From the NCBI GenBank assembly GCA_947495135.1, contig CANLXN010000001.1:310001-374000 (forward strand): 64,000 nucleotides of DNA, given 5' to 3'. This DNA comes from an uncultured Flavobacteriaceae bacterium (GTDB lineage: Bacteria > Bacteroidota > Bacteroidia > Flavobacteriales > Flavobacteriaceae). Made by a program: the position numbers and the translations under genes. Position 1 is the first letter of the stretch; each line of letters opens with the position of its first letter. Under the pieces are notes generated by a model. That model made no database searches. It was not told the DNA's origin and was given only the letters and a program-made list of their open reading frames with translations. Below are positions 18,097 to 58,684 of the stretch, in pieces.

Positions 18097-19389
18097 ATGA
18101 TTGCAATAGATAAAAAGTACAAAGTTATTACTCTGAGAAATTTCAGGGAGGTTGATCAAATTAAGACATACCTGTCTGAGGAACAAAAAAAGAGCATTGA
18201 AGTAGTTGGGAATGTGTTACCCTTTAAAATTAATAACTATGTAATCGATGAATTGATCGATTGGTCAAACGTTCCAGAAGATCCTATTTTTCAATTAACG
18301 TTTCCGCAAAAAGGGATGCTTTCAGACTTTTTCTATAAAACAATGGAAGACGCACTTTCCTTGGATTTAAGTAGATCCGATTTAAAGAAAATTGCAGATG
18401 GTATTCGCTATCAGTTAAACCCAAATCCCTCAGGACAGGACAAGAATATTGCAAAAATTGATGATAAAGATTTGCGCGGTATTCAGCACAAGTATCAGGA
18501 GACAGCTTTGTTTTTTCCAAGTAGTGGTCAAACATGTCATGCATATTGTACTTTTTGTTTTCGTTGGTCACAATTTGTTGGAATGGAGGATTTAAAATTC
18601 GCTATGAAGGAATCTGAATTGATGATCGAATACTTTGACAAGAATCCGTCAATTACAGATGTCATCTTTACAGGTGGTGATCCAATGGTAATGTCCACAC
18701 AAAAGTTGGCAAGCTATATTGATCCTTTACTGGAAAAGCGTCCAGGGAATTTACAAAACATAAGACTTGGAACAAAAGCGCTGAGTTATTGGCCGTACAA
18801 ATTCTTAACAGATAAAGATGCAGACGATACTCTTAGGCTTTTTGAAAGAGTGATTGAAAGCGGTTTTCATTTAACCCTTATGGCTCATTTCAATCATCCT
18901 AATGAACTAGCTACCGATGCTGTTCAACACGCAATTAAGCGCATACTGAGCACAGGAGTTCAGATAAGAACACAATCACCTATTCTCAATAACATAAATA
19001 ACGACACAAATGCTTGGGCCAACATGTGGAGAGAGCAAGTTAGACTCGGGCTTATACCTTACTATATGTTTGTTGCTCGCGATACAGGGGCACAAGATTA
19101 TTTTGCGATTCCATTGGAAAAGGCTTTGTCGATTTACAACAAAGCGTACCAAGGAGTGAGCGGATTAGCAAGAACAGTAAAGGGGCCTAGTATGTCTACA
19201 GATTATGGTAAAATTGAACTGCTCGGGATAAATGAAATTAATAATGAAAAGGTTTTCACCCTCCGATTTATTCAAGCCCGAAATCCAGAATGGGTAAAAG
19301 AACCATTCTTTGCTAAATACGATCCTAAGGCCGTTTGGATTAGTGATTTAAAACCTGCCTTTGGAGAAGAAAAATTCTTTTTTCAATAA
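18097..19389 (+). CDS. KamA-family radical SAM protein (lysine 2,3-aminomutase-like, non-canonical)
   Basis: 430 residues. The radical SAM cluster motif CxxxCxxC is present as C147-H-A-Y-C151-T-F-C154, and the SAM-binding GGDP motif follows (FTGGDPM). Fold and length match the KamA (lysine 2,3-aminomutase) family, whose classical members move the alpha-amino group of lysine to the beta carbon using SAM, a 4Fe-4S cluster and PLP. By eye, though, the hallmarks of true lysine aminomutase are absent: the region matching YYIYQCDLS reads YYMFVARDT, and the PLP-lysine loop (DAPGGGGK in the Clostridium enzyme) is replaced by VKGPSMSTDYGK. So beta-lysine formation should not be assumed. It is 12 bp from a TauD-like oxygenase and lies directly before an NRPS that opens with an unusual A domain, so making or modifying that monomer is the best contextual guess. 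Confidence 0.9.
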   Translation: MIAIDKKYKVITLRNFREVDQIKTYLSEEQKKSIEVVGNVLPFKINNYVIDELIDWSNVPEDPIFQLTFPQKGMLSDFFYKTMEDALSLDLSRSDLKKIADGIRYQLNPNPSGQDKNIAKIDDKDLRGIQHKYQETALFFPSSGQTCHAYCTFCFRWSQFVGMEDLKFAMKESELMIEYFDKNPSITDVIFTGGDPMVMSTQKLASYIDPLLEKRPGNLQNIRLGTKALSYWPYKFLTDKDADDTLRLFERVIESGFHLTLMAHFNHPNELATDAVQHAIKRILSTGVQIRTQSPILNNINNDTNAWANMWREQVRLGLIPYYMFVARDTGAQDYFAIPLEKALSIYNKAYQGVSGLARTVKGPSMSTDYGKIELLGINEINNEKVFTLRFIQARNPEWVKEPFFAKYDPKAVWISDLKPAFGEEKFFFQ

Positions 19390-38744: not shown

Positions 38745-39407
38745 ATGTCCTTTAATAATATAAAACTAAATTCAAAAATCACAAGACAACAACGCGACCA
38801 TCAAGCTTTTTCTAAGCTGAAAGTGTCGGATGATTTTAATCTCTTTATCTATTTTTCTGATACAAATTCGGAAATATCTATTGAGGCCAACCGCAACCTA
38901 CACGATCATATTAAGCTTAAATATGTTGATAATACGTTGGTAATAGAAAAAACTAAGAATTTAATGCTTAGAGGAAAGGAAGTTTCAAATATCTACATCA
39001 CTACTCCGTCATTTTCAGAATTTGAGATTAAAAGTGATTCCAATGTCAAACTATATTCTGAGCTAAACACAGAATATTTTAGAGTTCAACTTAAGGGAGA
39101 CAGTTCTTTCATTGGATCGGTAAATAGTATTCTGGGTGAAGTCATTGTTAAAGACGATTCAGTGATCGATTTGAGTGGAAAAATCCATTCGTTGAAGTTA
39201 AGAGTTTCTGGCGATAGTAAGTTTGAAAGCTACGATCTAGTGGCCAACGATTTAGAGGCTGAGCTTTCAGGGGATAGCAGCGCCCGTATTACTGCAAATA
39301 ATAAAATAGAGCTCAAAGTAAAAGGTGACAGTGATTTCCGCTTTAAAGGAACGGCATCTGTCAACTTTATCGAAAAAAATAAAGCAGAAAAAACAATGGC
39401 TTACTAA
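38745..39407 (+). CDS. DUF2807 / GIN-domain protein without signal peptide
   Basis: 220 residues rich in beta-strand repeats with recurring SGDS, KGDS and KSDS turns (for example VSGDSKF, LSGDSSA, VKGDSDF), the pattern of the GIN/DUF2807 'putative auto-transporter adhesin' family common in Bacteroidota and predicted to form a beta-solenoid. Typical members have a signal peptide or lipobox; this one starts MSFNNIKLNSKITRQQRDHQ with no hydrophobic segment, so it is probably cytoplasmic. Its role in the locus is unknown. A scaffold or chaperone for the megasynthases, or a factor binding the product, are guesses only. It is flanked closely by the aminotransferase and an NRPS gene on the same strand, so it is likely a real member of the operon. 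Confidence 0.8.
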   Translation: MSFNNIKLNSKITRQQRDHQAFSKLKVSDDFNLFIYFSDTNSEISIEANRNLHDHIKLKYVDNTLVIEKTKNLMLRGKEVSNIYITTPSFSEFEIKSDSNVKLYSELNTEYFRVQLKGDSSFIGSVNSILGEVIVKDDSVIDLSGKIHSLKLRVSGDSKFESYDLVANDLEAELSGDSSARITANNKIELKVKGDSDFRFKGTASVNFIEKNKAEKTMAY

Positions 39408-51448: not shown

Positions 51449-54400
51449 ATGAAAGATCTTATTGCAGAATTGAAGGAGAATAATGTGGCTATTAACTTAA
51501 AGGGAGAGCACCTAGAGATTAAGTTCGATGGAGTATTGGAAACCGATTTATTGATCAAGTTAAAGAATAATAAGCAAGATTTGATCTCTCTTCTTAAGAG
51601 TCATTCGATAGAAAATCAATTTTCGGACATTCCTGCTTTGGAGAAAGCAGACCATTACGCCATTTCGAACGCGCAAAAACGACTGTGGATTCTTGGGCAA
51701 TATGAAGGAGGTTCGGTAGCATATAATCTGCCTAACACAGCCGAATTATTTGGCGATTATGATAAAAAAATATTTGATAAGGCCATAGGCAAAGTTATTG
51801 ACAGACATGAAATTCTAAGAACCGTTTTTAAGGAAGATGAATCTGGGGAAATACGGCAATGGATAGTATCTGCTGAAAATTTTAATTTCGAAATCGATTT
51901 TTTTGATTTGAGAAATCAAGAAAATAAAAAGGCAAAGTTATCCAATTATATCTCTGAAGACGCTTATAAAGCATTCGATCTTGAGAGTGGTCCTTTATTA
52001 AGAATAAGTCTACTTCAGTTGGAGGACCGTCATTTTGTTTTGTATTACAATGTACACCATATAATTAGCGATGGATGGTCTATGGATGTATTGATCAATG
52101 ACGTTAAAACGTATTATGAGTCATTAAAAATGGGGGTTCCTGTAGCTCTTCCAAAATTACAGATTCATTATAAGGATTATGCTGCTTGGCAGCAAGAGCG
52201 GCTTATAAATGGAACATTAGAAGAGAGCAAGGCGTATTGGTTAGAATACTTATCGGGTACTCTTCCTTTGCTTAATTTGCCTATATCGAAACCAAGACCA
52301 AAAGTTTTTTCTTATCAAGGTAAGGCGTTTTCTACCTTATTAGATAGAGATCTAACGGCTAAACTTAAGGCATACTGCCAAAATAATGGTGGTACACTGT
52401 TCATGGGATTACTTTCTGTCTGGAATGTGTTGTTGTACAGATATACTAATGAAAACGATTTTATTGTAGGCTCACCGGTATCTGGACGGGACCATTCAGA
52501 TTTAAGTAACCAAATTGGTTTTTATGTAAATACAATTGTTCATAGAAATAAATTAAAAGGTTCGGACACCTTCGAATCATTTTTTCAGACAGTAAAGACG
52601 AACACTTTGGCGTCTTTAAATCATCAAGAATATCCATTCGACGAATTGGTAAATGATTTAGATTTTATAAGAGATACTAGCAGGAATGTGGTTTTTGATA
52701 CTATGTTGACAGTGCAAAACACTTCAAAAAGAAATGATGATGCCCTCAATAAAAAAGAAGATTTTTCAGAAATAAGTGAAGGCCAACTATGCAGGGAAAT
52801 GTTCGATATTTCATTAGATTTTGAAGAGATAGCAGATTATTTATCATTCAGATTGAGCTGTAATACTGCAATTTATGAGGATCAACTGGTAACAGGAATG
52901 ATGAATCATTTCAAAGAACTACTTAAAAACTTACTCACATTCCCAACACAAAAAATTGACACAGTGAATATGCTTTCTAGCCAAGAGAAGTATAAGTTAC
53001 AAGTCGATTTTAATGATACAAAAATAGATTACCCTAAAAAAACGATATTAGATGCCTTTCGAGAAAATGTAGATCAAGACCCGAATGCTGTGGCTCTCAT
53101 ATATGGAGGAGATAAGATTAGTTTTGGTCAGTTAAACTCAATATCTAATCAAGTTGGTAATTACTTGATATCCCAAGGGGTTACTTCTGGAGAATTAATA
53201 CCAATTTGTATGGATAGATCTTTTGAAATGCTTTTTGGGATTATTGGCATTTTAAAGGCGGGAGGCGCGTATGTGCCTATTGTTCCCGAATATCCTCAGT
53301 CAAGGATCGATTATATTTTAGAAGATACAGCGGCTAGAATAGCAGTGGTATCTGAAAAACATAGCCATAAAATTGATACTAAAAAGGTAATTTGCTTAGA
53401 CACATTTCCTTACAATTCGTATTCATCTGAAAATTTGAATGTTAGTATTGACAAAGAGCAAACGGCCTATTGTATTTATACATCGGGGACCACTGGTAAT
53501 CCAAAGGGTGTCCTCAATTCTTATGAAGGTTTATGGAATAAATTAATGTGGACTAAAGACTATTTAAAAATAACTTCTGAGTCTGTTTTATTTCAAAAGA
53601 CTCCTTGTGTTTTTGATGTATCTGTGTGGGAGTTTACCATGCCATTACTTACTGGCTGCAAATTAGTTATCGCTAAACCAGATGGACATTTTGATCTGGA
53701 ATATATGCAGGAGGTAATTATTGAAGAAGGCGTTTCGCATATTGAATTTGTCCCGTCTTTGATAGATATGTTATTAGAATCGTTAGATGAAAAAAAATTG
53801 AAAAGTTTAAAACATGTTTTTAGCGGTGGCGACGTAATTTTTCCATCTACTTTAAGCAAGTTTCAAAAATTACTCCCAAGAGTTAAAATTCACAATACAT
53901 ATGGCCCTACGGAGGCTGCAATTGATGTTACTGCAATAGATATAACTTCTCTCAATTCAGATCTAGAAGTAATATCTATTGGTAAACCCATCGCAAATAA
54001 CGAGTTATATATTGTAAATGAATCACTAGAGTTACAACCTATTGGAGTTAGTGGAGAATTAATAATAGGTGGAATTCAGGTAGCAAAGGGGTATTTGAAT
54101 AAACCGGAACTCACCAAAGAGAAATTTGTAAAAAACATTTTTACAGGAGAAGGTAATCTATACAAAACTGGGGATTTATGCAAGTGGCGTCTTGATGGGA
54201 CGATTGAATTCTTAGGACGAATTGACAATCAGGTAAAGGTAAATGGTCACCGTATAGAACTAGAAGAAATAGAAAGTTCGTTGTCAACTCTCGATTTTAT
54301 AAAGTCTAATGTGGTCGTTTTAATAGAACAAGATTCAGGGGAGAAGGCACTGGTGGCATATATAACTTCCGATAAGGATGTGTCTAATGAAAAGGTCCGT

Positions 54401-57400
54401 GAAAAATTAAGTGAAAACTTGCCAAGCTACATGTTGCCATCCTATTTTGTGCAATTGAAAGAATTACCATTAACTGTAAATGGAAAAATTGATAGAAAGG
54501 CCCTTCCAATACCGGATGCCATGAACTCGTTTTCTTCCATAAAATATGTAGCTCCAAGAAATAAGGTAGAGGTAAAACTTGTATCCATATGGGAGGAGGT
54601 TTTACAAAGAGAAAATATCGGAATCGAGGATGTATTTTTTGATTTGGGAGGACATAGTTTAAAAGCGATGCGACTCATTAATGAATATTATAAGAGCTTT
54701 GAAGTCAAGATTTCTTTGAACACTATTTTTTCTCACGATACAATCGCCGCACAAAGTAAAATTATAATAGACAGTCAGAATGAGTGTTTTATTGAAATTC
54801 CTAAGGTACCTATAAAGGAAGATTACCCAATTTCCAATGCACAGAGAAGACTTTGGATTTTAAGTCAGTTTAAAGGAGGTTCTTCTGTTTATAATATGCC
54901 AACGGCGGTAGTTTTAAATGGTGACTACAATTTGCAGAGCTTTGAAAAAGCTGTTTGTTCGGTTATAGAACGCCATGAAATTTTGAGAACTGTCTTCAAA
55001 GAGAATTCAGAAGGCGAAATAAGACAATCCATTATAGATGTTGATGCCATGAATTTTAAAATGGTGTACAAAGATTTCAGAAAAAGTGCGTCCCTAGCTA
55101 GTTCATATATGGAAGAGGATGCCATGGTTGATTTTGATTTAGAGAAGGGGCCGCTAATAAGAGCAGCAATACTGCAAACATCGGATCAAGAATATGTTTT
55201 CTATTACAACATGCATCATATTATAAGTGATGGCTGGTCCATGGAGGTATTGTCTCAAGATGTATTGCATTATTATGAAGCCTATGCCAACAATTTAGAA
55301 CCTAAATTAGAGCAGTTAAGAATTCAATACAAAGATTATTCTTCTTGGCAGTTATCACAGTTGGACACAGATATCAGTAAAGAATCTCGTGATTATTGGT
55401 TGGAAAAATTATCGGTAGAATTACCGGATGTCCTTTTGCCAGGTGCAAAACAGAGACCTGCAGTAAGAACGCACAAAGGAGGAGGTTTAACAACCTACTT
55501 AGATAAAGAACTCACCGCCTTGCTTAGCGATTTTTCAAGAGCTAATGGTGGAAGTCTTTTTATAAGTTTACTTTCTACGTTTTCGATTCTACTATACCGC
55601 TATACTCAAGAGAAGAATATTGTACTGGGAAGCCCAGTTGCAGGAAGAGATCATATAGATCTAAAGGATCAGATCGGTTTTTATGTAAATACATTAGCCT
55701 TTTTAAACCAAATACATCCTGCTGAAGATTTTACAAGTTTTTATCATCGAGTTAAGCAAAATACACTGGAGGCGTATGATCATCAGATGTATCCATTCGA
55801 TAGGTTAGTAGAAGAATTAAACGTAATTAAAGATACTAGTAGAAATGCGATTTTTGACATTATGCTAGTTCTTCAGAATAATGCGGGAAATAAGGGAGAC
55901 ATTAATTTCGGTAAAACCAAATTAGACCATATTGAGGAATACAGTAACGTGGCTTCAAAATTTGACCTACAGGTTACGTTTGAAGAAGTAGGAGACTATT
56001 TATCGTTTAACTTGGTCTACAACAAAGATGTTTATAGTGCGTCCATGTTGAAAAATTTAATAGGCCATTATAAACAATTATTATCTTCATTATTGACCAA
56101 TCCTAGCATAGCTATTGACCAAATAGATTATTTGGCAGAAGAGGAGAAGAAAGAATTGCTAGGTGATTTTAATGATGTTGATTATCCAAAAGACAAGACC
56201 ATTGTAGATTTTTTCGAAGATCAGGTTAGAAGAAGGCCAGATGCAATAGCTGTAAGTTTTCAAAAGTGTTCATTCACATATCAGGAAATAGAATGTTTAT
56301 CCAATCAATTTGCCCATTTTCTTGTAGACGACCATGCAATTACTCCTGGTGATTTTGTGAGTCTAACTTTGGAAAGGAGCGAATGGTTAATAGTTTCAAT
56401 ACTTGGAATATTAAAGATAGGAGCCACTTATGTGCCAATTGATCCGGATTCCCCAGTAGATCGAATTTCATTTATAAAAAAGGATTGCAACAGTAAGAAA
56501 CATATTAATCAAGATTCAATTGAGTCTTTTAGAAATAAAATGTTCTCTTCGGAAAAGCGGACCGTTTCAATAAGACCAGAAGATTTAGCTTATGTTATTT
56601 ATACCTCTGGTTCCACGGGAAAACCGAAGGGAGTAATGGTTAGTCATTTAAACGTAGTTCGATTATTTTTTAATGAAGAAAGTTTATTCGATTTTAATAA
56701 TGAAGATGTTTGGTGCTTGTTTCATTCGTATGCCTTCGACTTTTCAATTTGGGAGATTTTTGGAGCTCTATTAAATGGAGGGCAGATTGTTATACCAACA
56801 AAATTAGATGTCAAAGATCCTATACTGCTTTCAAATTTGTTGTGCGATCATAGAGTAACTGTTTTTAATCAAACACCATCATCATTTCAATCGATCCATA
56901 AACTACTCATAGACTCTAGGTTAGATTTTGCATTTAGGTATATTATTTTTGGGGGTGAAGCATTATATCCATTTTATTTAAAAGAGTGGAGCGATTTATA
57001 CCCAGATTGCAAGTTGATTAACATGTATGGCATAACAGAAATAACCGTTCATACCACTTACAAAGAGATTAGTAGTAAGGACATAGGTCTAAACATTAGT
57101 ACTATTGGAAAATCTCTTCCAACGTCAAAGTCGTATATCTTGGATGCTAATTACAATCTTGTTCCTTTTGGAGTTGTAGGAGAAATTCATATAGGCGGAG
57201 CAGGATTGGCTTCAGGTTATTTGAATCGCCCCGAATTGACCAACGATAGATTTATATCTAATCCTTTTACCCAAGGAGAAAAATTGTATCGAACCGGAGA
57301 TTTAGGAAGATGGTTGCAGGATGGAAATATAGAGTACATAGGCAGAAAAGATGATCAAGTAAAGGTGAGAGGTTACCGAATAGAGTTAGGAGAGATATCG

Positions 57401-58684
57401 TACGCATTATCTCAAATAGCCAATATTGACGCAAATGTAGTTCTTGCTAAAGATGGAGAATCTGGGAAAGTTATCATAGCCTATGTAACAAGTAAAGACA
57501 TTTTAAATGTTAATTATCTGAGAGAGGAATTGCGAAAGAGTTTACCAGATTATATGTTACCATCTTATTTTGTCCAGTTGCAAGAATTACCATTGACCGT
57601 AAATGGTAAGGTGGATCGTAAAAACTTACCCGCTCCACAAACAACGGAGATGTCTAGCGGAATCGAATATGTAGCTCCGCGAACCGATCTAGAGAAGAGC
57701 ATGGTTGCTCATTGGGAGAATATCTTAGATAAAACTGGTATCGGAATTGATGATGATTTTTTCAACTTAGGAGGAAATTCTCTTAAAGCTATAAGGGCAT
57801 CGAAATTTGTTAATACCGTTATAAATTTACGGTCAATTTACGAACATAGGACAGTTAGAGAGATATTGAAGCATGTAGACGAAACTAATTTTAAGAATAA
57901 TGATGGTCTAATTCATGAATATTATCAAAATTCAAATAAGACTAAAAATATCATCCTCTTTCCATATGCTGGAGCAATTAATACAATGTTTTTTCCTCTT
58001 GCAAATGAGCTGTCTAGCGATTTCAATGTTTACATAGTTTCCATGCCATGGAATGATTGGCAAAACGATAGTGAACCTAGGTCTTTGGATTGGATAAAGG
58101 AGACTTTGGTAAACGAAGTAGTTGAGAAGATAAAAGGCGACACCTTCTTATTTGGCCATTGCGCAGGAAGTAGTTTAGCTGTCTATTTATCTCACGAATT
58201 GAAAAAATTAATGATTCCTTTAAAAGGTTTATTTATTGGAGGAACTTTTTATGAGCGGGCGAAGAAACATTTACGGTTTACTGGGAACTTATGGGCTAAA
58301 ACTTCTAATGAAGAAATTTACAATTGGCTCTTAGGTTTAGGTATGAAAAATGATGATCTAGAAGAAGATATGAGAGACAAAATGCTCCGAAGTTTCAAGC
58401 TTGATTCAGAAATTTCGACGGTATTTGGTTCTATAAATGAAACAAATCGTCAAAAATTGAACGTTCCTATTCATTGTATCTACGGTACCGATGACCCCAT
58501 AACGTCTAATTACGGTAAACACTATAAAAAATGGCGAAAGCATTCAAGAGATGTCTCTTATTCAGAAATACAAAACGCCAAACATTATTTTGTTAACTAC
58601 AACTATTCTGAAACTTCTAAAATTATTTTAGAAGAAGTAAACAGGCTATACGATACAGAAAAACAACAATGGTCGTTGCAGTAA
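51449..58684 (+). CDS. NRPS, TubC_N-C-A-PCP-C-A-PCP-TE (Thr-ending, Cys-type thioesterase)
   Basis: 2411 residues. TubC docking domain 1-52; C1 HHIISDG at 203-209. A1 (TSGTTGNPKG near 681; FDVSVWEFT; NTYGPTEAAID) reads D-V-W-E-F-G-T-I-D-K, between known Orn and Ser codes. PCP1: LGGHS, Ser1070. C2: HHIISDG near 1256. A2 (FDFSIWEIFG; NMYGITEIT) reads D-F-W-N-I-G-M-V-H-K, the exact threonine code. PCP2: LGGNS, Ser2111. The C-terminal thioesterase begins LFPYAGAINTMFFPL, like stand-alone type II editing TEs, and its nucleophile elbow is GHCAG with Cys2238 in place of Ser; likely partners are Asp2348 (YGTDDP) and His2379 (NAKHYF). Their spacing also matches type II TEs. It is the only release domain in the window, probably freeing the product as an acid, macrolactone or beta-lactone. 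The gene start is paralogous to that of the next NRPS. Confidence 0.95.
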   Translation: MKDLIAELKENNVAINLKGEHLEIKFDGVLETDLLIKLKNNKQDLISLLKSHSIENQFSDIPALEKADHYAISNAQKRLWILGQYEGGSVAYNLPNTAELFGDYDKKIFDKAIGKVIDRHEILRTVFKEDESGEIRQWIVSAENFNFEIDFFDLRNQENKKAKLSNYISEDAYKAFDLESGPLLRISLLQLEDRHFVLYYNVHHIISDGWSMDVLINDVKTYYESLKMGVPVALPKLQIHYKDYAAWQQERLINGTLEESKAYWLEYLSGTLPLLNLPISKPRPKVFSYQGKAFSTLLDRDLTAKLKAYCQNNGGTLFMGLLSVWNVLLYRYTNENDFIVGSPVSGRDHSDLSNQIGFYVNTIVHRNKLKGSDTFESFFQTVKTNTLASLNHQEYPFDELVNDLDFIRDTSRNVVFDTMLTVQNTSKRNDDALNKKEDFSEISEGQLCREMFDISLDFEEIADYLSFRLSCNTAIYEDQLVTGMMNHFKELLKNLLTFPTQKIDTVNMLSSQEKYKLQVDFNDTKIDYPKKTILDAFRENVDQDPNAVALIYGGDKISFGQLNSISNQVGNYLISQGVTSGELIPICMDRSFEMLFGIIGILKAGGAYVPIVPEYPQSRIDYILEDTAARIAVVSEKHSHKIDTKKVICLDTFPYNSYSSENLNVSIDKEQTAYCIYTSGTTGNPKGVLNSYEGLWNKLMWTKDYLKITSESVLFQKTPCVFDVSVWEFTMPLLTGCKLVIAKPDGHFDLEYMQEVIIEEGVSHIEFVPSLIDMLLESLDEKKLKSLKHVFSGGDVIFPSTLSKFQKLLPRVKIHNTYGPTEAAIDVTAIDITSLNSDLEVISIGKPIANNELYIVNESLELQPIGVSGELIIGGIQVAKGYLNKPELTKEKFVKNIFTGEGNLYKTGDLCKWRLDGTIEFLGRIDNQVKVNGHRIELEEIESSLSTLDFIKSNVVVLIEQDSGEKALVAYITSDKDVSNEKVREKLSENLPSYMLPSYFVQLKELPLTVNGKIDRKALPIPDAMNSFSSIKYVAPRNKVEVKLVSIWEEVLQRENIGIEDVFFDLGGHSLKAMRLINEYYKSFEVKISLNTIFSHDTIAAQSKIIIDSQNECFIEIPKVPIKEDYPISNAQRRLWILSQFKGGSSVYNMPTAVVLNGDYNLQSFEKAVCSVIERHEILRTVFKENSEGEIRQSIIDVDAMNFKMVYKDFRKSASLASSYMEEDAMVDFDLEKGPLIRAAILQTSDQEYVFYYNMHHIISDGWSMEVLSQDVLHYYEAYANNLEPKLEQLRIQYKDYSSWQLSQLDTDISKESRDYWLEKLSVELPDVLLPGAKQRPAVRTHKGGGLTTYLDKELTALLSDFSRANGGSLFISLLSTFSILLYRYTQEKNIVLGSPVAGRDHIDLKDQIGFYVNTLAFLNQIHPAEDFTSFYHRVKQNTLEAYDHQMYPFDRLVEELNVIKDTSRNAIFDIMLVLQNNAGNKGDINFGKTKLDHIEEYSNVASKFDLQVTFEEVGDYLSFNLVYNKDVYSASMLKNLIGHYKQLLSSLLTNPSIAIDQIDYLAEEEKKELLGDFNDVDYPKDKTIVDFFEDQVRRRPDAIAVSFQKCSFTYQEIECLSNQFAHFLVDDHAITPGDFVSLTLERSEWLIVSILGILKIGATYVPIDPDSPVDRISFIKKDCNSKKHINQDSIESFRNKMFSSEKRTVSIRPEDLAYVIYTSGSTGKPKGVMVSHLNVVRLFFNEESLFDFNNEDVWCLFHSYAFDFSIWEIFGALLNGGQIVIPTKLDVKDPILLSNLLCDHRVTVFNQTPSSFQSIHKLLIDSRLDFAFRYIIFGGEALYPFYLKEWSDLYPDCKLINMYGITEITVHTTYKEISSKDIGLNISTIGKSLPTSKSYILDANYNLVPFGVVGEIHIGGAGLASGYLNRPELTNDRFISNPFTQGEKLYRTGDLGRWLQDGNIEYIGRKDDQVKVRGYRIELGEISYALSQIANIDANVVLAKDGESGKVIIAYVTSKDILNVNYLREELRKSLPDYMLPSYFVQLQELPLTVNGKVDRKNLPAPQTTEMSSGIEYVAPRTDLEKSMVAHWENILDKTGIGIDDDFFNLGGNSLKAIRASKFVNTVINLRSIYEHRTVREILKHVDETNFKNNDGLIHEYYQNSNKTKNIILFPYAGAINTMFFPLANELSSDFNVYIVSMPWNDWQNDSEPRSLDWIKETLVNEVVEKIKGDTFLFGHCAGSSLAVYLSHELKKLMIPLKGLFIGGTFYERAKKHLRFTGNLWAKTSNEEIYNWLLGLGMKNDDLEEDMRDKMLRSFKLDSEISTVFGSINETNRQKLNVPIHCIYGTDDPITSNYGKHYKKWRKHSRDVSYSEIQNAKHYFVNYNYSETSKIILEEVNRLYDTEKQQWSLQ

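Follow-up and report, generated by a model that had tools for sequence, protein, structure and literature searches.

A probable ObiF/SulM-type cysteine thioesterase behind a predicted threonine module in an uncultured Flavobacteriaceae bacterium

The N8 gene and its terminal thioesterase

The nonribosomal peptide synthetase (NRPS) gene N8 of an uncultured Flavobacteriaceae bacterium encodes a C-terminal thioesterase (TE) with a Cys nucleophile. It lies in a stretch of 64,000 nucleotides, here called the window, which corresponds to positions 310001-374000 on contig 1 in a genome of 4.29 Mb. Pfam identified two Condensation, two AMP-binding, and two PP-binding stretches in the N8 protein, together with one Thioesterase match covering residues 2168-2384 (whole-protein score of 37.1 bits against a cut-off of 26.4). 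The TubC_N match at its start scored 25.1 bits, slightly below the cut-off of 26, and this start is 74% identical to that of N9. The TE is the last domain of the protein, with no MbtH-like tail of the ObiF type behind it, and it is fused and carries Cys, whereas stand-alone type II TEs (TEIIs) are separate proteins with Ser. The features are as follows (C, condensation; A, adenylation; T, carrier).

51449..58684, + strand: NRPS gene N8, 2,411 amino acids, with a TubC_N-like docking domain and the order C-A-T-C-A-T-TE (Pfam)
56540..57400, + strand: core region of the last A domain, with the code DFWNIGMVH (code by alignment; approximate limits)
57686..57896, + strand: terminal T domain with a GGNSL motif (approximate limits)
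57890..58684, + strand: C-terminal TE domain with a Cys nucleophile, ObiF/SulM-like (Pfam, sequence and fold searches, trees, and residue comparison)
58160..58162, + strand: codon of Cys2238, the nucleophile of GHCAG, flanked in the model by strand 104-110 and helix 112-126 (nucleophile elbow)
58238..58240, + strand: Gly2264 at the position-I site, by alignment (Gly1173 in ObiF1; PMC6668435)
58493..58495, + strand: Asp2349, the catalytic Asp at position II, following strand 214-219 in the model (alignment to the ObiF1 triad)
58583..58585, + strand: His2379, the catalytic His within HYF, after model strand 242-247 (alignment to the ObiF1 triad)

An earlier note on this DNA had described the only TE of the window as having GHCAG (Cys2238) where Ser is usual, an LFPYAG start, and an Asp and a His about 110 and 141 residues after the Cys. 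Translation and Pfam confirmed the motif and its sole occurrence, the LFPYAG start is present in the translation, and alignment to ObiF1 places Asp2349 at +111 and His2379 at +141. In domain numbering the triad is Cys111, Asp222, and His252; Asp222 aligns with the corresponding Asp of ObiF1 and SulM, and Gly137 aligns with their Gly. The location of Cys2238 at the nucleophile elbow had been posed as a refutable point, and an AlphaFold model (mean pLDDT of 88.4), made with an alignment of the window TE and 26 of 80 scan loci (27 rows), puts Cys111 there. In the same model Asp222 and His252 follow the strands expected for a position-II arrangement.

The module before the TE had been credited with an exact Thr code and hence with a C-terminal residue that could carry a β-hydroxyl. 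In our alignment the last A domain indeed reads DFWNIGMVH, which we take to be the Thr code, and the terminal residue is accordingly predicted to bear a β-hydroxyl. Among 50 PDB sequences, this domain matched ObiF1 (3.8e-61) and 5n9w/5n9x (5.6e-57); 5N9X is the Thr-activating domain Thr1 (PMC6668435).

Placement of the thioesterase among embedded relatives

Among solved structures, the best sequence match of the window TE was ObiF1 (1.9e-19), followed by SulM (1.4e-9 and 2.5e-9) and then by type II TEs. Among the 50 fold matches listed by Foldseek, ObiF1 stood at rank 1 and SulM at ranks 2-5, and the type II and other NRPS TEs in that list came lower.

Further relatives came from a genome-wide scan that gave 496 pattern matches and 329 relatives, the best 80 of which were kept. 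These, the window TE, and six relatives from plasmids (L016-L021) make up a survey of 87 embedded TEs. All but one of the 87, the window included, have a Cys nucleophile, a count biased by the scan, in which GHC was obligatory for one of two patterns; the exception, L090, has Ser. Embedded Cys-TEs with a position-II Asp were found in Actinomycetota, Bacillota, Chloroflexota, and Pseudomonadota as well as in the genome of the window. The code of the last A domain was readable in 83 of the 86 relatives other than the window: 2 are Thr, 10 Ser, 4 ObiF-type, 11 Asn-like, 9 DMPQVGLVW, 44 Asp-like, and 3 other, where the meanings of the codes are our assumption. The coded A domain does not adjoin the TE in L017 (a Ser row) or in five Asp-like rows from Amycolatopsis.

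A residue comparison separated 89 embedded rows from 7 TEII rows (BorB, SrfA-D, and others), which share the α/β-hydrolase fold and a similar LFPYAG-type start. The nucleophile is Cys in 88 embedded rows and Ser in 1, versus Ser in all 7 TEIIs. The next residue is Val in 80 embedded rows, Ala in 6, and Ile, Gly, or Asn in 1 each, versus Met (6) or Leu (1); position I is Gly (76) or Ala (13) versus Ser (6) or Thr (1); and the residue after the His is Tyr (81), Phe (7), or a gap (1) versus Phe (6) or Met (1). At position II the TEIIs have Asp (4/7) or Glu (3/7). The window TE fits the embedded pattern at all compared sites. It shares with its embedded relatives the Cys, a small next residue, the position-I Gly, the position-II Asp, Thr225, Tyr228, and His-Tyr-Phe; because these residues occur together, as they do in the relatives, the pattern in the window TE is not due to chance.

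Two trees were built. The first (97 rows) takes in seven stand-alone TEIIs and the type I TE L015, and it splits the seven from the other 90 rows with support of 100/100; since L015, on a very long branch, sits among the 90, this tree is no test of type I TEs against the rest. In it the window joins Tahibacter soli L101 (Ser code) and Caballeronia sp. NK8 L021 (Thr code) at 99/81, both of which, like the window TE, are C-terminal Cys-TEs of multimodular NRPSs. For the second (45 rows), 35 of the 86 relatives were chosen by hand for spread, L015 and L023 were dropped, and the nucleophile residue was removed before realignment; long branches are present. L110, which comes from the window's family and is a fused TE with a Ser nucleophile, was added with that nucleophile kept. 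The earlier note had called for a TE phylogeny that included ObiF and SulM, and here the window, ObiF1, SulM, and the 35 embedded TEs stand together, 38 rows against 7, at 100/99.9. The other side consists of six stand-alone type II TEs and L110, whose last A code was read by eye as DLFNNALTY (presumably an Ala code). The join of the window with L101 and L021 is not among the starred sets of this tree, and we are unsure of the window's position within the embedded group.

Sequence search, fold search, trees, and residue comparison thus bear out the suggestion of an ObiF/SulM relation with a type-II-like triad, and they support assignment of the window TE to the ObiF/SulM-type Cys thioesterase clade. 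With ObiF1 it has in common the GHCAG Cys, the position-I Gly, the position-II Asp, and a place C-terminal to a module for a β-hydroxy amino acid. It differs from ObiF1 in having a Thr code rather than the ObiF type, in ending its protein, in serving many modules, and in reading PWND rather than PGHD. SulM likewise has Cys, position-I Gly, and position-II Asp, but it has a QCN motif instead of GHCAG and a diaminopropionate code instead of a Thr code.

Azaserine biosynthesis was considered as a source of another characterized relative and rejected, as its releasing TE is the separate protein AzsB (PMC10445470). In a search of 60 genomes for close relatives, only the window's own genome matched at 1e-8. 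Three of 395 phylum genomes, its own included, matched at 1e-5; the other matches were two short GHS proteins and a GYSAGG domain in a long frame, by eye TEIIs and a type I TE. Three of 397 family genomes, again including its own, matched the 27-row profile at 1e-20, and the other two have GHS rather than GHC. Nine pattern-matching stretches in viral contigs held no relative.

Release of the peptide chain

From the window and adjoining stretches we read a cluster of ~95 kb with eleven NRPS genes and one KS-AT-KR-T polyketide synthase (PKS) gene. The eleven NRPS genes carry 19 A and 19 T domains by Pfam, and a Thioesterase domain occurs only in N8. Three NRPS genes lie beyond N8 on the DNA; we nevertheless infer that N8 is the last to act and that all modules serve a single product.

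By analogy with ObiF1, the window TE would be the release domain of an assembly line with 19 NRPS modules and a single PKS module. A peptidyl chain ending in L-Thr would pass from the last carrier domain to Cys2238 as a thioester, assisted by the His2379-Asp2349 dyad with its Asp at position II. Attack of the Thr β-hydroxyl on this thioester, which is still activated, would then close the ring in 4-exo-trig fashion and free a peptide with a C-terminal Thr-derived β-lactone. As the ObiF1-like structural features are present together with a predicted Thr, we hold this the most likely mode of release, with our confidence standing at about the midpoint between belief and disbelief. We also count in its favor the Thr, Ser, and ObiF-type codes among the relatives, the TauD genes at all 11 Asn-like loci described below, and the placement of L110, with its Ser nucleophile and presumed Ala code, beside the stand-alone TEIIs. 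The mechanism proposed for ObiF1 has the chain pass to the Cys and the β-hydroxyl then close the ring, and the C1146S mutant gives the hydroxy acid only (PMC6668435), which offers a reason for the Cys to be kept. Shifting the Asp to position I in an ObiF1 double mutant brings activity below that of D1254A alone (PMC6668435). A Cys by itself is no proof of β-lactone release, because the uncharacterized AB3403 TE also has one, together with a position-I Asp (PMC11298585).

The reversion of ObiF1 mutants to hydrolysis (PMC6668435) can also be counted in favor of plain hydrolysis of the window's chain to a linear peptide acid. We consider this outcome improbable. Type II TEs mostly hydrolyze, but for that purpose Ser would do, as it is found in L110 and in the stand-alone TEII of the cluster, while the surveyed embedded TEs have Cys almost throughout (within a sample drawn in part by a Cys-requiring pattern).

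An alternative hypothesis, which we regard as somewhat unlikely, is macrolactonization or macrolactamization, in which an internal hydroxyl or amine attacks the Cys thioester to give a cyclic peptide. Long peptides are often cyclized, and the cluster suggests several internal nucleophiles (a hydroxylated Asn-type residue, Thr, or a diaminobutyrate-type side chain) through its two TauD dioxygenase genes, its diaminobutyrate transaminase gene, and A codes that include two of the Asn type, three DIWQLTADD, and one DVWQATCDD, whose residue assignments we assume. However, the valinomycin Vlm2 TE first appears at rank 15 among the fold matches listed, and ObiF1 and SulM are the only structurally characterized NRPS TEs reported to combine Cys with an Asp at position II (PMC11298585).

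Another rival is a shuttle of aminoacyl or peptidyl groups between carrier domains, as carried out by LgnA (for Thr) and the Cys enzymes SyrC and CmaE. In its favor, the window TE is a Cys enzyme of this fold that follows a module predicted to load Thr, and further NRPS genes lie downstream. A shuttle of this kind is very improbable here: since the counts of 19 A and 19 T domains match, there is no NRPS carrier without an A domain of its own to act as an LgnA-like acceptor. LgnA is moreover a stand-alone protein, and its S77A mutant served as a control (PMC8748450).

Several observations weigh against release of a Thr β-lactone. The window TE is only 28% identical to ObiF1 and 18% identical to SulM, is at most 29-30% identical to any tree row, and sits on a long branch, and it has Trp at the Gly74 site, which is nearly invariant in the 27-row alignment. 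The Ser member L090 falls inside the clade in the 97-row tree, so Ser is possible there too. A second threonyl-tRNA synthetase (ThrRS), which we take to be the obafluorin immunity determinant, was sought as a candidate immunity gene and not found (one of five matches lay above the cut-off). The two TauD genes of the cluster could supply internal hydroxyls for macrolactonization. More than half of the readable codes (44/83) are of a kind we label Asp-like (DLTK in 28, DFTK..MI in 12, DFTK.GHVG in 2, and DLLK in 2). With the window's two TauD proteins as queries (E of 1e-6, frames of at least 120 amino acids), a TauD gene was found at none of these 44 loci within flanks of up to 12 kb. Finally, the ObiF and SulM products are small (PMC11298585).

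The same TauD search found a gene at 20 of the 86 loci, namely, all 11 Asn-like loci (DLPKVAEVG), 7 of 9 DMPQ loci, L069 (no code), and L090. Given this distribution, a link between the TE and a β-hydroxyl holds for some groups of relatives and is not extended to the largest. At 1e-5, the only PDB matches of the window's two TauD proteins and that of L063 were 1y0z and 9yut.

To our knowledge, obafluorin, built from two units, is the only product known to be released as a β-lactone by an NRPS TE. ObiF1 and SulM, with which the window TE groups, are the two domains known to form strained four-membered rings, and the window's NRPS product may carry a reactive β-lactone. A wider proposal combines two parts: a long peptide from 19 NRPS modules and a single PKS module with a C-terminal Thr β-lactone, and a broad family of embedded position-II-Asp Cys-TEs that release small rings formed from the terminal residue's side chain and that in many cases are followed by a fused exporter-like domain. 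We advance this combination tentatively and with some doubt. If true, a long assembly line ending in Thr would equip a large peptide with a covalent warhead, and the case would test whether Cys plus a position-II Asp predicts strained-ring release generally; the survey offers further loci, whose last codes are Thr, Ser, Asn-like, or Asp-like, at which ring closure could be tested. For Flavobacterium and Chryseobacterium clusters, the authors of the SulM study propose longer β-lactam peptides (PMC11298585). Among the matches listed in a search of literature titles and abstract openings, with few subscription journals, there was neither a long NRPS peptide with a Thr β-lactone nor a report of the window's cluster.

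Domains and genes around the surveyed thioesterases

In 79 of the 87 surveyed rows (for example L040:6806-12253 and many of L024-L103), more than 650 residues lie between the start of the TE match and the end of the frame. The tail is a major facilitator superfamily (MFS) transporter in L040 by Pfam and in L016, L019, and L020 by eye, whereas other domains are expected behind the TE in the four ObiF-type rows. A literature text search gave no match for a TE-MFS fusion. At the Herpetosiphon locus (L040:3592-12253), an A-T protein and a protein resembling glycosyltransferases stand together with one of the order C-A-T-TE-MFS (Pfam), and a Paenibacillus locus (L030:3561-12352) has the same three-protein set by sequence likeness. 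Relatives of the first two proteins occur at 4 of 10 Asp-code loci compared; a comparison of conserved neighbors of the Asp-code groups was swamped by spurious high-GC frames. The sole Ser member surveyed (L090:5606-6364) has the code DIWQSTADD, and a TauD gene adjoins it.

Besides the genes named above, the window's cluster has an ABC transporter, a phosphopantetheinyl transferase (PPTase), and, by eye, NusG-like and aspartokinase-like genes. A sulfotransferase gene, looked for as a mark of SulM-type β-lactam clusters, was not detected in the part of the cluster genes scanned. The stand-alone TEII lies outside the window, given here on the window scale.

72560-73273: stand-alone TEII with GHSMG, Ser nucleophile

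The start of N10 (66244-67700 on the window scale, beyond its end) is a C-like domain without a readable HHxxxDG; it adjoins a TauD gene (65144-66142), precedes an Asn-type A domain, and is possibly an interface domain for a hydroxylase. The last domain of N10 is a T domain, and the hydrophobic tail behind it resembles those of N1, N2, and N5 (by eye).

A KamA-like radical SAM protein (18097-19389) scored under the cut-offs of every NCBIfam family that it matched. Its close relatives at L025 and L031, both Chloroflexota loci, are neighbors of Cys-TE genes. The gene was rejected as cluster specific, with matches at 1e-40 in 46 of 395 phylum genomes, its own included. Three tandem look-alike proteins of ~460 amino acids lie beyond the window's end (81886-86111 on the window scale); the third has a weak ATP-grasp match below the cut-off, the first has no Pfam match, and neither has an NCBIfam match. 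Among the NRPS genes there is also a DUF2807 protein (putative auto-transporter adhesin, head GIN domain) at 38745-39407.
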